Both the position numbers and the translations under genes were made by a program. Below, in pieces: positions 3,086 through 7,636 of a stretch of 64,000 bases of DNA. A model generated the notes under the pieces. That model worked only from the letters and a program-made list of their open reading frames with translations, was not told the DNA's origin and did not search any database. How positions within the stretch are numbered: the first letter of the stretch is position 1; each line of letters starts with the position of its first letter. The stretch comes from Thermococcus sp. 21S9 (lineage in GTDB: Archaea > Methanobacteriota_B > Thermococci > Thermococcales > Thermococcaceae), in NCBI RefSeq assembly GCF_012027635.1, contig NZ_SNUS01000001.1, positions 1,178,001 through 1,242,000 on the forward strand. The letters run 5' to 3'.

Positions 3086-5191
3086 ATGAGGGGCTACCTG
3101 ACGTTCGTCCTTCACACTCACCTACCCTACGTTAGAAAGCACGGCAAGTGGCCCTTCGGCGAGGAGTGGCTCTACGAGGCGATGAGCGAGAGTTACCTAC
3201 CCCTGCTCATGGAGTTCGAGCGCTTGAGGGGCTCCCTCAACTTCCAGCTCGTCGTGAACATAACGCCCGTCCTGATGGAACAGCTGGCCGACGACTACGT
3301 CAAGGCCGAGTTCGAGAAGTATCTCTTGAGGAAAATCGAAAGAACCCGGGAAGACCTTGAATCTGGCAAATACCCCGAGAAGCCCGTTAAAGAAGTCCTC
3401 CGTCACTTCGAGCGCGTTTACTCCTACTGGAAGGCCATAAACGGCGACGTAATCGGCAAGTTCCGGGAGCTTCAGGAGGAGGGTTACCTTGAAATCATAA
3501 CCTCCCCCGCGACGCACGCCTACCTGCCCCTTCTCCTGAGAGATGAGTCAATACGCTCCCAGATAGCCAACGGAATAGCAACCTACGAGAAGCACTTCGG
3601 AAGGAGACCTCGTGGAATGTGGGTTTCCGAGTGCGCCTACCGGCCTTCCGGCGAGTGGGAGCTCCCGGGCGGAAGAAAGGTCGAGAGGAAGGGGATAGAG
3701 AAGTTCCTCGAGGAGTTTGGAATCAAGTACTTCTTCGTCGAGAGCAACCTCATTGACAACGGACCGGTGAGCGACTCCTATGGCGCCCCGGTTCCTACCG
3801 GTTCTCTCGCGACGCTCAGGCCCTACTGGGTTAAGGGGTCAAACGTTGCGGTCTTCGGCAGGAACCGCGAGACGGGACATCAGGTCTGGAGCGCCCACTA
3901 CGGCTACCCCGGCGACTTCCATTACCGGGAGTTCCACAGGAAGGCCGAGCGGAGCGGTAACCAGTACTGGCGCGTAACAGGTAAAGACGTTGATTTGGGT
4001 GAGAAGGACTTCTACGACCCCGAGAAGGCCCTTGAGCGGGTTGAAGAGCACGCGAGGCACTTCGTTTCCCTCGTCGAGAACCTGCTCGCGAGGTTCGAGG
4101 GGGAAACCGGTGAGAAGGGGATAATCGTTGCCCCCTACGACACCGAGCTCTTCGGCCACTGGTGGTACGAGGGTGTTAAGTGGCTTGGCAGGGTTCTTGA
4201 GCTTCTTGCTGAGAGGGGAATCAAAACGACGACGCTTTCGGCCTTTCTCTCAAAATACTCTGGAGAGAGGCTTGAGGTTGAACTTCCCGAGGGCTCGTGG
4301 GGCGCCAACGCGGACCATTCAACGTGGTGGAACGAGGAAACCGAGTGGACGTGGGAGGAAATCTACCGCGCGGAGGAGCGTATGGTCGCGCTGGCGAGCC
4401 GTTTTTACGGGAAGGATAAGCTCGGCGACAGGGCGATAGAACAGCTCGCGAGGGAGCTTCTAATCCTTGAAGCGAGCGACTGGCAGTTCCTCATAACGAC
4501 GGGCCAGGCGGAGGCCTACGCCGAGAGGCGCGTTCTGCTCCACAGCAGGGACTTCCACAGGCTCGCCAACGAGGTCGTCAAATACTTCAACACCGGCGAG
4601 ATGGACGTTTCACTCCTCGAGGAGCTTGAGGAGCGCGACAACCCCTTCAGGCCGGTGGTAGTTGCTCACTACGCCAGCGACAGCCCTCCAGAACTGGAGG
4701 AGTTCGTTGAGCCACCGAAGGTTCCGCCTGAGGATGAGTCCACCTCAGAAACTCCAGATGAGAATGAAGTTTCTGCCAGGAAACGTGCTGAAGAGACAGG
4801 GAGCGGAAACAGTGCCCGAGAAAATGTCGTTGGAATTTCAGATGCCGGAGAACAGAGGGAAGAACGGGCAGAGAGGTTCTACGCGAGTTCGCTCGCCTTC
4901 ATGAAGAGGAGGAGGCCGAAGGTTCCCCTCTCGAAGAGGATTGACACGAGGCTGACGAAGAGGGTAGAGAAAACTAAAAAGAAGCCCGGGAAGCCAGAAA
5001 CCGAGAAGAAACGCGCGCCGAAGATTAAACGTCTCATAGACGTCAAGGGCATAGGGCCCAAAACCCTCGCGAGGCTTAACAGGGCCGGGATAAAGACGCC
5101 CGAAGATTTACTTCGCGCGGACCTTGAGGAGCTCGCGAGGAAGAGCGGGGTTTCAATAAAAAGGTTGAGAAGGTTCGTGGAGCAACTTTAG
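3086..5191 (+). CDS. GH57 1,4-alpha-glucan branching enzyme with C-terminal HhH tail
   Basis: 701 residues. The N-terminal GH57 barrel carries the family signatures LHTHLPYVR, the nucleophile in MWVSECAYRPSG (E182) and the acid/base in PYDTELFGHWW (D352). The product closely resembles the characterised T. kodakarensis branching enzyme TK1436, including its dispensable C-terminal extension: a low-complexity charged linker (about 545-640) leading to a helix-hairpin-helix pair (about 650-701, VKGIGPKTLARLNRAGI). It forms alpha-1,6 branches in glycogen-like polymers. The start at ATG 3086 follows GGTGAT; an in-frame GTG at 3077 overlaps that site. Transcribed alone. Confidence 0.93.
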   Translation: MRGYLTFVLHTHLPYVRKHGKWPFGEEWLYEAMSESYLPLLMEFERLRGSLNFQLVVNITPVLMEQLADDYVKAEFEKYLLRKIERTREDLESGKYPEKPVKEVLRHFERVYSYWKAINGDVIGKFRELQEEGYLEIITSPATHAYLPLLLRDESIRSQIANGIATYEKHFGRRPRGMWVSECAYRPSGEWELPGGRKVERKGIEKFLEEFGIKYFFVESNLIDNGPVSDSYGAPVPTGSLATLRPYWVKGSNVAVFGRNRETGHQVWSAHYGYPGDFHYREFHRKAERSGNQYWRVTGKDVDLGEKDFYDPEKALERVEEHARHFVSLVENLLARFEGETGEKGIIVAPYDTELFGHWWYEGVKWLGRVLELLAERGIKTTTLSAFLSKYSGERLEVELPEGSWGANADHSTWWNEETEWTWEEIYRAEERMVALASRFYGKDKLGDRAIEQLARELLILEASDWQFLITTGQAEAYAERRVLLHSRDFHRLANEVVKYFNTGEMDVSLLEELEERDNPFRPVVVAHYASDSPPELEEFVEPPKVPPEDESTSETPDENEVSARKRAEETGSGNSARENVVGISDAGEQREERAERFYASSLAFMKRRRPKVPLSKRIDTRLTKRVEKTKKKPGKPETEKKRAPKIKRLIDVKGIGPKTLARLNRAGIKTPEDLLRADLEELARKSGVSIKRLRRFVEQL

Positions 5192-5922
5192 AGGAACGCG
5201 TGCCTGTGCTTGTAGAGGCCAACGATGGCGCTTCCGATGAGGTAGAGCTCGACCGCCGCGAGGAGGACGAGAAATGCCAGGTATGCCTTAACGGTTCCTG
5301 CGCTCCAGTGGGTCTTCTGCATAATCTCTGCTATTTTTTCTGGGCTTGCAAGTGCCTTCAGGCCGTATGAAATGGCGCTCATTCCCGTTACAATCGGAAT
5401 TGGCATCGCCGAATACGCCAGCAGAAGCCCGAGGTGGCCCCTCCTCTGGAGGGATAGCATTGAGAGTATAATCGGGACCGCAAGAATCAGGGCCGTTATG
5501 GCCAGGAACTGGTTGAGGTAGAATCCGCTGAGTATAAAATACGCCGTCATTCCAAAGAGGTATTTCCTGTAAGCCTTTTTGAGCTCCGCCAGCTTTTCCG
5601 GCTTAAAGTCGTACTCCGCGGAGCGTGAGTATAGGAGAATCTTGTCGGCCATCTTCAGGTAGTTCTTCTTGCCCTCCTTTTCTATTGCCTTGTCGGTGCT
5701 CATGAGCTTGAATTCCTTAGCCTTCTTGTAGAAGAACTCCGCGAGTTCAACGTTGTCCTTCTCGGCTTCCTCTGCGAGTTTCTTGAAGTTCTCCACGGCC
5801 TCCCTGATTTTCTCCTTCACTCTGGCCTTCTCCTTCTCCGTGAGAACTGTGAGCCTGTCTATTCTATCGAGGGTGGATTCAAGAACCTCCGCTGTGTCGA
5901 GCAGAATATCCTTGCTCTTCAC
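5188..5922 (-). CDS. Hypothetical four-helix membrane protein with charged N-terminal domain
   Basis: 244 residues. The first 115 residues are highly charged and helical, probably cytoplasmic and coiled-coil forming (EKEKARVKEKIREAVENF). About four membrane helices follow (roughly 122-140, 143-160, 165-190 and 212-236). I do not recognise a named family. The stop overlaps that of the convergent branching enzyme. The start at 5922 follows GGAGGTG in the reverse direction. It lies just downstream of the MetS-like gene on the same strand with a 36-base gap, so it may be cotranscribed with the NSS transporter, though no functional tie is evident. Confidence 0.75.
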   Translation of the reverse strand: MKSKDILLDTAEVLESTLDRIDRLTVLTEKEKARVKEKIREAVENFKKLAEEAEKDNVELAEFFYKKAKEFKLMSTDKAIEKEGKKNYLKMADKILLYSRSAEYDFKPEKLAELKKAYRKYLFGMTAYFILSGFYLNQFLAITALILAVPIILSMLSLQRRGHLGLLLAYSAMPIPIVTGMSAISYGLKALASPEKIAEIMQKTHWSAGTVKAYLAFLVLLAAVELYLIGSAIVGLYKHRHAFL

Positions 5923-5958
5923 GGTTACACCTCCAAAATTTGAAAAGAAAGAAGGGCC

Positions 5959-6066
5959 TTAAGACCCTTGTGCCTTCTCGGCCTGGAGGAGCTTTCCAAT
6001 GCTCCAGTACATCAGTGCAAAAATAACAAACCAGGCAAAGAGCATATAGATTACCCAGCTTCCCAT
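5959..6066 (-). CDS. MetS-like small subunit of the NSS transporter (35 residues)
   Basis: A short frame begins with ATG at 6066, directly after GAGGTGGTGACG, and encodes a single hydrophobic helix (residues 4-24, YMLFAWFVIFALMYWSIG) followed by a short polar tail ending AQGS. It starts 10 bases after the stop of the NSS transporter, and its ribosome site overlaps that stop, a clear sign of translational coupling. NSS transporters of the MetP type are partnered with such one-helix MetS subunits. Assignment rests on size, topology and position rather than on strong sequence identity. It would be missed by length-limited gene finding. Confidence 0.72.
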   Translation of the reverse strand: MGSWVIYMLFAWFVIFALMYWSIGKLLQAEKAQGS

Positions 6067-6076
6067 CGTCACCACC

Positions 6077-7636
6077 TCAGACCTTTATGATAACCTCGTT
6101 CTTCTCGAGCTCCTCGCCGTACTTCTTCTTGATGGAGTAGTAGCTCTCGATGAATCCAAGGGCCCACATGATGATTATTGCAATCCTTGCCGGCCACTCA
6201 AGGGTGGTTCCAATGAGGCTCTTGGCCATTCCGAACAGCGGTATCAGGAGGAGTATTGGTGCGATGTAGAGGATTATTGGCTTGTACCACTCTGGAACCT
6301 TCATCCAGGCTCCCTCGTGGAGCTCCTTCCAGAAGTTGTCGGGCTTGAAGAGGTACACTGCAACGATGATGTCAAACAGAGCCAGCAGGGTCAGCTGGAA
6401 GCTTACCCAGGCGTCGACCTGGTCCATGTAACCGCTGATGTAAATGACGGGCAGTCCTGCGATGAGGTAGATTATGAAGGTGACCCAGGTTCCGACCTTC
6501 CTCTTTATGCCAAGGTCCTCTTCGAGCAGTGCGACGACGTAGTTGTACATGGCTATTGCCGACGTGAATCCTGCGAACCAGAGCAGGAGGAACCAGAGTG
6601 CACCGAAGATTCTTCCTGCGTCACCCATGCTGACGAAGGCGTTTGGCAGGCTCGTATATGAGAATCCAAGTCCGAACTTGTGTCCAATCCAGGAGAGCAC
6701 CTCGGTCTTGCCCTTTGCAAGGACGTCGGGCGGGACAATCTTCGGGGCGTAGGCGGTGGCGAGGGGTATGGCTATTGAACCACCGAGGACAACCTCGGCG
6801 AACTCGTTGAGTGAGACGGTGGCTATACCCGAGAGGGCGACGTCATCCTTGGGGCCAAGGTAGCTGGCGTAGTTCTGGATGATACCCATACCCAGAGAGA
6901 GGGTGAAGAAGATTTGTCCCGTCGCAGCGAGCATGACCGCCGCGAAGTGCTCCTTCAGGTAAGCCCAGTTCGGGCTCCAGATGAACTTGAAGCCGTCTAT
7001 GGTGCTCCAGTTCGGGTCGACCGGCGAACCGAGAACGAATATGTATCCGACCATTATGATGGCGAAGACGTACAGGAGTGGCATCATTATCTTGACCCAT
7101 CTCTCGATACCCTTGCTGACACCCTGGCCGACAGCTATCGCCAGGAGAATCACGGTGATGCCCCAGAAGAACATGACCTCCGTGTGGTTGCTGAGGTACT
7201 GGACGAAGAAGTCACCAGTGTTCTTACCAAAGTACGCTCCGGTTATGCTGAACCAGGAGTAGGCCGCTGACCAGCCGATGAGGTGCAGGTAGTAGCTGTT
7301 CAGGAGCAGGGTCAGCGAGAACGCGAGCATACCGCTTATGACGCCCCACCAGAGGGCGCTTCTCGGCTTGACGCTCTCCCTTGCCATGAGGTAGTAAGTT
7401 GGTCCGAGGGTACCGTGGCCATACTTGCCACCGTAACGACCTGCCACCCACTCAATCCACATCACTGGGATACCGAGGAAGAACAGCGCTATGAAATACG
7501 GCACCATGAAGGCGCCGCCACCGTTCTGGGCGACCTGGGTTGGGAACCTTACGAAGTTACCAAGGCCGACCGCGTTTCCAGCCATGGCCAAAATTAAACC
7601 AATCTTGGTCGCCCATTGGTCCCTCTGCTGCTCCAC
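6077..7636 (-). CDS. Sodium-dependent NSS-family amino acid transporter (MetP-like)
   Basis: 519 residues with about 12 membrane helices. The TM1 signature GNAVGLGNFVRFP, where Na+ and substrate bind in LeuT-fold NSS proteins, is intact at residues 16-28, followed by the QNGGGAFMVPYF segment. The start is GTG at 7636 with GGAGGTGG six bases upstream. The family imports amino acids such as methionine, alanine or aromatic residues by sodium symport; the substrate here cannot be read from sequence. A MetS-like subunit follows. It is divergent from gdhA, so the imported amino acid could feed the peptide/amino acid catabolism in which gdhA takes part (inference). Confidence 0.93.
   Translation of the reverse strand: MEQQRDQWATKIGLILAMAGNAVGLGNFVRFPTQVAQNGGGAFMVPYFIALFFLGIPVMWIEWVAGRYGGKYGHGTLGPTYYLMARESVKPRSALWWGVISGMLAFSLTLLLNSYYLHLIGWSAAYSWFSITGAYFGKNTGDFFVQYLSNHTEVMFFWGITVILLAIAVGQGVSKGIERWVKIMMPLLYVFAIIMVGYIFVLGSPVDPNWSTIDGFKFIWSPNWAYLKEHFAAVMLAATGQIFFTLSLGMGIIQNYASYLGPKDDVALSGIATVSLNEFAEVVLGGSIAIPLATAYAPKIVPPDVLAKGKTEVLSWIGHKFGLGFSYTSLPNAFVSMGDAGRIFGALWFLLLWFAGFTSAIAMYNYVVALLEEDLGIKRKVGTWVTFIIYLIAGLPVIYISGYMDQVDAWVSFQLTLLALFDIIVAVYLFKPDNFWKELHEGAWMKVPEWYKPIILYIAPILLLIPLFGMAKSLIGTTLEWPARIAIIIMWALGFIESYYSIKKKYGEELEKNEVIIKV

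Follow-up and report, generated by a model that had tools for sequence, protein, structure and literature searches.

The window analyzed here is a 64,000-nt stretch of the Thermococcus sp. 21S9 genome, on whose minus strand an NSS transporter gene, a 35-codon open reading frame (ORF), and the gene for a 244-aa membrane protein follow one another (Table 1). The minus-strand frame from 6066 to 5959 translates to MGSWVIYMLFAWFVIFALMYWSIGKLLQAEKAQGS, followed by the stop codon, and its ATG lies 10 nt past the NSS stop codon on the same strand. A first-pass annotation, made from the window's sequence, had proposed that this frame encodes a MetS-like partner of the transporter, that it is preceded by a perfect ribosome site, and that it overlaps the end of the NSS gene. 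The GAGGTG ribosome site is present as described and is found at most 20 nt upstream of the small ORF in all 76 loci examined that carry an NSS of the window's type (hereafter type A). The overlap was a misreading: the two coding sequences are separate, and it is the ribosome site that overlaps the NSS stop codon.

Table 1. Features of the locus, listed in the direction of the minus strand; positions are those of the window.
Feature	Position	Strand	Basis
NSS transporter, putative large subunit, 519 aa, assigned to the LeuT clade	6077..7636	(-)	PF00209 E 2e-39; LeuT best PDB relative
Ribosome-binding site GAGGTG	6073..6078	(-)	sequence; on NSS stop codon TGA (6079-6077)
35-aa single-helix protein, candidate MetS-like small subunit	5959..6066, including stop codon	(-)	translation, conservation, pN/pS, profile link, helix face
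Hairpin across the small ORF stop, then oligo-T tract; probable transcription terminator	5942..5969	(-)	terminator-like site and T-tract conservation
244-aa membrane protein, function not assigned	5188..5922	(-)	conserved Thermococcaceae neighbor; AF2 pLDDT 88.5

Among the 50 window genes of at least 150 aa, only the NSS gene is followed, within 60 nt of its end, by an ATG-initiated frame of 28–45 aa when hydrophobicity and a ribosome site are both demanded. The maximal 19-residue hydropathy of the small protein is 2.1. Pooled over 22 ungapped Thermococcus sequences, pN/pS of the small ORF is 0.33, whereas four other frames give 1.04, 1.16, 1.17, and 1.00 and one antisense frame gives 0.51; the substitution pattern of non-coding DNA, for which a check had been suggested, was not seen. 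The 5959–6066 frame is a real protein-coding gene under purifying selection. That it is a chance open frame is a reading favored by its short length, but its conservation, pN/pS, and ribosome site contradict this, and we regard it as refuted.

The small ORF was matched by tblastn in 83 of 94 Thermococcaceae genomes. It was found in four further genomes (G021, G051, G074, and G080) by reading downstream of the orthologous NSS, and in the other genomes without a tblastn match this NSS is either absent from the available sequence or cut by a contig end. The small ORF is thus carried by all Thermococcaceae genomes in which both the orthologous NSS and the DNA behind it are readable, and the conservation that the first-pass annotation had put up for checking holds for this NSS throughout the family. 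In every examined locus containing the NSS end, the ORF lies directly behind the NSS on the same strand; for seven loci, this placement rests on tblastn.

Two type-A loci have a damaged transporter gene. In one (L091 489–2993, genome G076), the NSS is broken by a stop-rich sequence of ~0.9–1 kb, probably an inserted element, and the downstream small ORF is intact. In the other (L087 1417–2978, genome G077), the NSS lies in two pieces in different frames, reflecting a frameshift or a sequencing error.

Conservation along the type-A proteins has a period of exactly 100 degrees per residue (p 0.0002), which indicates that one helix face is constrained, as expected for packing on another membrane protein. 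The conserved face comprises A11, W12, I15, M19, and L26 in the window's numbering, with M8 and W21–I23 less strict. Applied to the MetS set, which is more diverse, this periodicity test gave no significant result (p 0.26). Lysine and arginine occur almost only in the C-terminal part of type-A proteins (mean 2.85, compared to 0.25 in the N-terminal part), suggesting an N-out, C-in topology by the positive-inside rule.

Downstream, a terminator-like site spans 5969–5952 with the tail CTTTCTTTTC. The region contains 4 such sites against 3.0 in shuffled sequences, which makes the hairpin weak evidence by itself, and RNA folding of the hairpin scored no better than shuffles. A T-rich (oligo-T) tract follows the small ORF in all 63 distinct type-A loci, compared to 5% at random positions. 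A hairpin and then a T run are also visible behind several of the small ORFs from Bacillota described below. The tract agrees with archaeal termination; transcription probably stops behind the small ORF, which marks the NSS and the small ORF as a putative bicistronic unit.

The 244-aa gene lies behind the small ORF in all Thermococcaceae loci with readable downstream DNA. Its product has a helical N-terminal half, a C-terminal membrane part, and a C-terminus, HRHAFL, that is invariant in seven aligned sequences. It matched no Pfam or NCBIfam family, and its AF2 model found no convincing match in the PDB. This constant neighbor would suit a reading in which the small frame is a leader or coupling peptide for translating the 244-aa gene and has no function as a protein. 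We consider that very improbable: the oligo-T tract separates the two genes in each of the 63 distinct loci, Bacillota relatives carry the small ORF with no 244-aa gene behind it, and conservation acts at the level of residues on one helix face. The 244-aa gene probably lies outside the proposed two-subunit unit.

Among proteins of solved structure, LeuT of Aquifex aeolicus (PDB 2A65; ~40% identity, E ~1e-85) is the closest to the window's NSS, and helix 1 hardly differs between the two in the region of the Na+ site. In a maximum-likelihood tree, LeuT, itself a long branch, is sister to the Thermococcales type-A transporters and a set of Bacillota NSS proteins (the Bacillota bridge) with 100/100 support. 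By sequence and tree position, the window's NSS belongs to the LeuT clade. The bridge transporters are 42–50% identical to the window's NSS, and 11 of 11, including that of Acetoanaerobium noterae (locus L093), have a 33–35-aa ORF directly downstream, for example MSGSALFFMVLAWVVILGGCFFTLSNLIKHQAK. With LeuT sister to these two groups, all sampled LeuT-clade relatives with a readable neighborhood have a small partner ORF. Searches for further LeuT-clade bacteria returned no match when viral contigs were scanned with the window's NSS and with a LeuT fragment, and 397 relatives of a Bacillota genome gave no match at E 1e-45.

In the system to which the small protein had been likened, MetPS of Corynebacterium glutamicum, the small subunit MetS is reportedly required for transport by MetP. 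MetPS is a methionine/alanine importer (Trotschel et al. 2008, doi 10.1021/bi801206t). Like MetS, the window's protein is a single-helix small protein beside an NSS gene; it has 35 aa (~30–40 expected), one helix, and a positive C-terminal end, and it agrees with the NF033493 family in size, gene position, and charge pattern. MetPS has been described as a two-subunit NSS system (PMC3219685), and PF16951 and NF033494 are the models named for its small subunit.

The HMM search with PF16951 suggested by the first-pass annotation gave no match to the window's protein, nor did any other Pfam or NCBIfam family, the MetS model NF033493 included. The best Thermococcales type-A members score 13.8 and 14.7 bits against NF033493, for which the cut-off is 25 bits. 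By the family's own thresholds, then, the small ORF is not a MetS-family member. Four of the eight Bacillota bridge ORFs scanned, the neighbors of the window's branch, do exceed the NF033493 cut-off (28.7–35.9 bits); against PF16951 (MaAIMP_sms), the best bridge member reaches 19.3 bits, under the Pfam gathering threshold of 26.2.

The bridge can be followed in both directions. An HMM built from the Bacillota set recovers the Thermococcales members at a median of 19.6 bits (best decoy 11.7); in the opposite direction, the Bacillota members are recovered at a median of 27.3 bits (best decoy 7.8). A classical MetS HMM does not separate the Thermococcales members (median 3.1, best 11.5 bits) from shuffled decoys (best 10.5 bits). 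As this single-profile search fails, homology to MetS rests on the Bacillota bridge and on profile–profile scores of a short helix. Each of these scores exceeds the best of 150 column shuffles: 54.9 against 28.7 for Thermococcales with Bacillota, 32.8 against 29.4 for Bacillota with MetS, which is the thinnest margin of the three, and 31.0 against 22.0 for Thermococcales with MetS (hhalign probability 93.8%). All three pairings aligned over the full length with gaps of at most a single column. All sampled MetS proteins have a GG pair in the helix (G18 G19), which is present in most bridge members and absent from Thermococcales type A.

These comparisons support common descent of the small ORF with the MetS family. 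The proposal of a MetS-like partner thus stands as to gene order, the bridge ORFs that pass NF033493, and profile similarity beyond shuffles; it does not stand as membership in PF16951 or NF033493. The window's protein can be aligned with MetS over its whole length by profile comparison but, unlike MetS, lies below all MetS model cut-offs, lacks the GG motif, and has its NSS partner in the LeuT clade. Alternatively, a single-helix NSS partner might have arisen independently of MetS, its likeness being that of any short hydrophobic helix. The scores barely above decoys with the MetS HMM and the lack of a curated-model match for the window's protein fit such an origin. We nevertheless consider it unlikely in view of the three full-length, nearly gap-free profile matches and the bridge ORFs that pass NF033493, whose transporters are closer to the window's NSS than any others sampled.

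A census with PF00209, together with reading of the extra NSS loci, identified further NSS types in the Thermococcaceae. Type B is ~430 aa long, ends after the eleventh helix (by inspection), and has its own small ORF, MDAVYIIALFVVLIVYGPLIWALYKLSKASTP; type C is ~495 aa long and is likewise followed by its own, MEGSVIASMIIVLGFYWGLTLYFVKLALQKEKEKAQAS. Against the MetS HMM, the type B and type C small proteins score medians of 14.3 (best decoy 10.8) and 18.2 (best decoy 13.7), respectively. Types E and F, with one locus each, also have a small ORF, and these are not established as MetS relatives. Type G (L191 and L192) has no small ORF downstream, and the next gene appears unrelated to transport; NSS proteins therefore do not need a small ORF in general.

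The transporters that end after the eleventh helix, type B (L159, L161, L163–L165, and L173–L181) and type F (L190), are each accompanied by a one-helix ORF, and this small helix could take the place of helix 12. Type D, an NSS with an NF033493-positive small ORF, was found in two fragmented Thermococcaceae MAGs (L101 and L102; genomes G063 and G083). Its loci group with other archaea in the tree, perhaps through contamination or transfer.

We propose, with a probability of roughly 0.8, that the small ORF encodes the small subunit of a two-part LeuT-clade NSS amino-acid symporter, a helix packed on the transporter and needed for its assembly, stability, or turnover. The NSS and the small ORF would be made from one bicistronic transcript, and translation of the small ORF would start from the ribosome site that overlaps the NSS stop. 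The small protein would cross the membrane once, N-terminus out and lysine-rich C-terminus in, and the conserved face (A11, W12, I15, M19, and L26) would pack against the transporter. The helix would then be needed for NSS assembly, stability, or turnover, as MetS reportedly is for MetP. The analysis shows that the frame is coding and conserved, its gene order, its common ancestry with MetS-family proteins, the conserved helix face, and the charge bias; physical binding, topology, and the need for transport are what we infer.

Small single-helix proteins often regulate transporters, and the small ORF could encode a MetS-related NSS-binding protein that acts as a regulator or assembly helper and tunes stability, rate, or localization with no obligate role as a subunit, so that the NSS would transport in its absence. 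Such a role would accord with the existence of one Thermococcaceae NSS type that has no partner, and with the uptake that LeuT, studied as a single protein, shows in reconstituted vesicles (PMC10945697). The strict one-to-one pairing behind the NSS in every sampled clade member goes beyond what many regulators show, and we regard a purely regulatory role as a serious possibility, though one with well under even odds. By analogy to MetPS, the likeliest role of the small protein is that of a subunit on which assembly or turnover depends.

The first-pass annotation had suggested that an archaeal case would show that the two-part NSS design spans domains. This was already implied: NF033493 matches above its cut-off in Methanocaldococcus jannaschii and Methanosarcina acetivorans as well as in 12 further archaeal genomes, all outside the Thermococcaceae, and since it already matches methanogens, a domain-spanning two-part design is not new. 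Neither an archaeal MetS nor a LeuT partner was found in the open literature searched. Three things are new: a small-subunit branch that had gone unrecognized, the link of this branch to the LeuT clade, and a type-by-type pairing within one family.

Neurotransmitter transporters have LeuT as their structural model. LeuT has been studied as a single protein; the window's NSS has a small ORF directly downstream. We suggest, tentatively and at less than even odds, that transporters across the entire LeuT clade, LeuT of Aquifex among them, natively have two subunits and that the LeuT structures and kinetics were obtained without a partner helix. If so, the structures and kinetics that underpin the NSS/SLC6 field lacked that helix, and a second subunit, for which no one has looked, may be natural to the textbook-model transporters of the LeuT type. 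The pairing raises a simple question: does LeuT in the laboratory miss a subunit? Within the Thermococcaceae, current family models miss this small-subunit branch, and distinct NSS types in the one family keep a small partner of their own, including types that end after helix 11.
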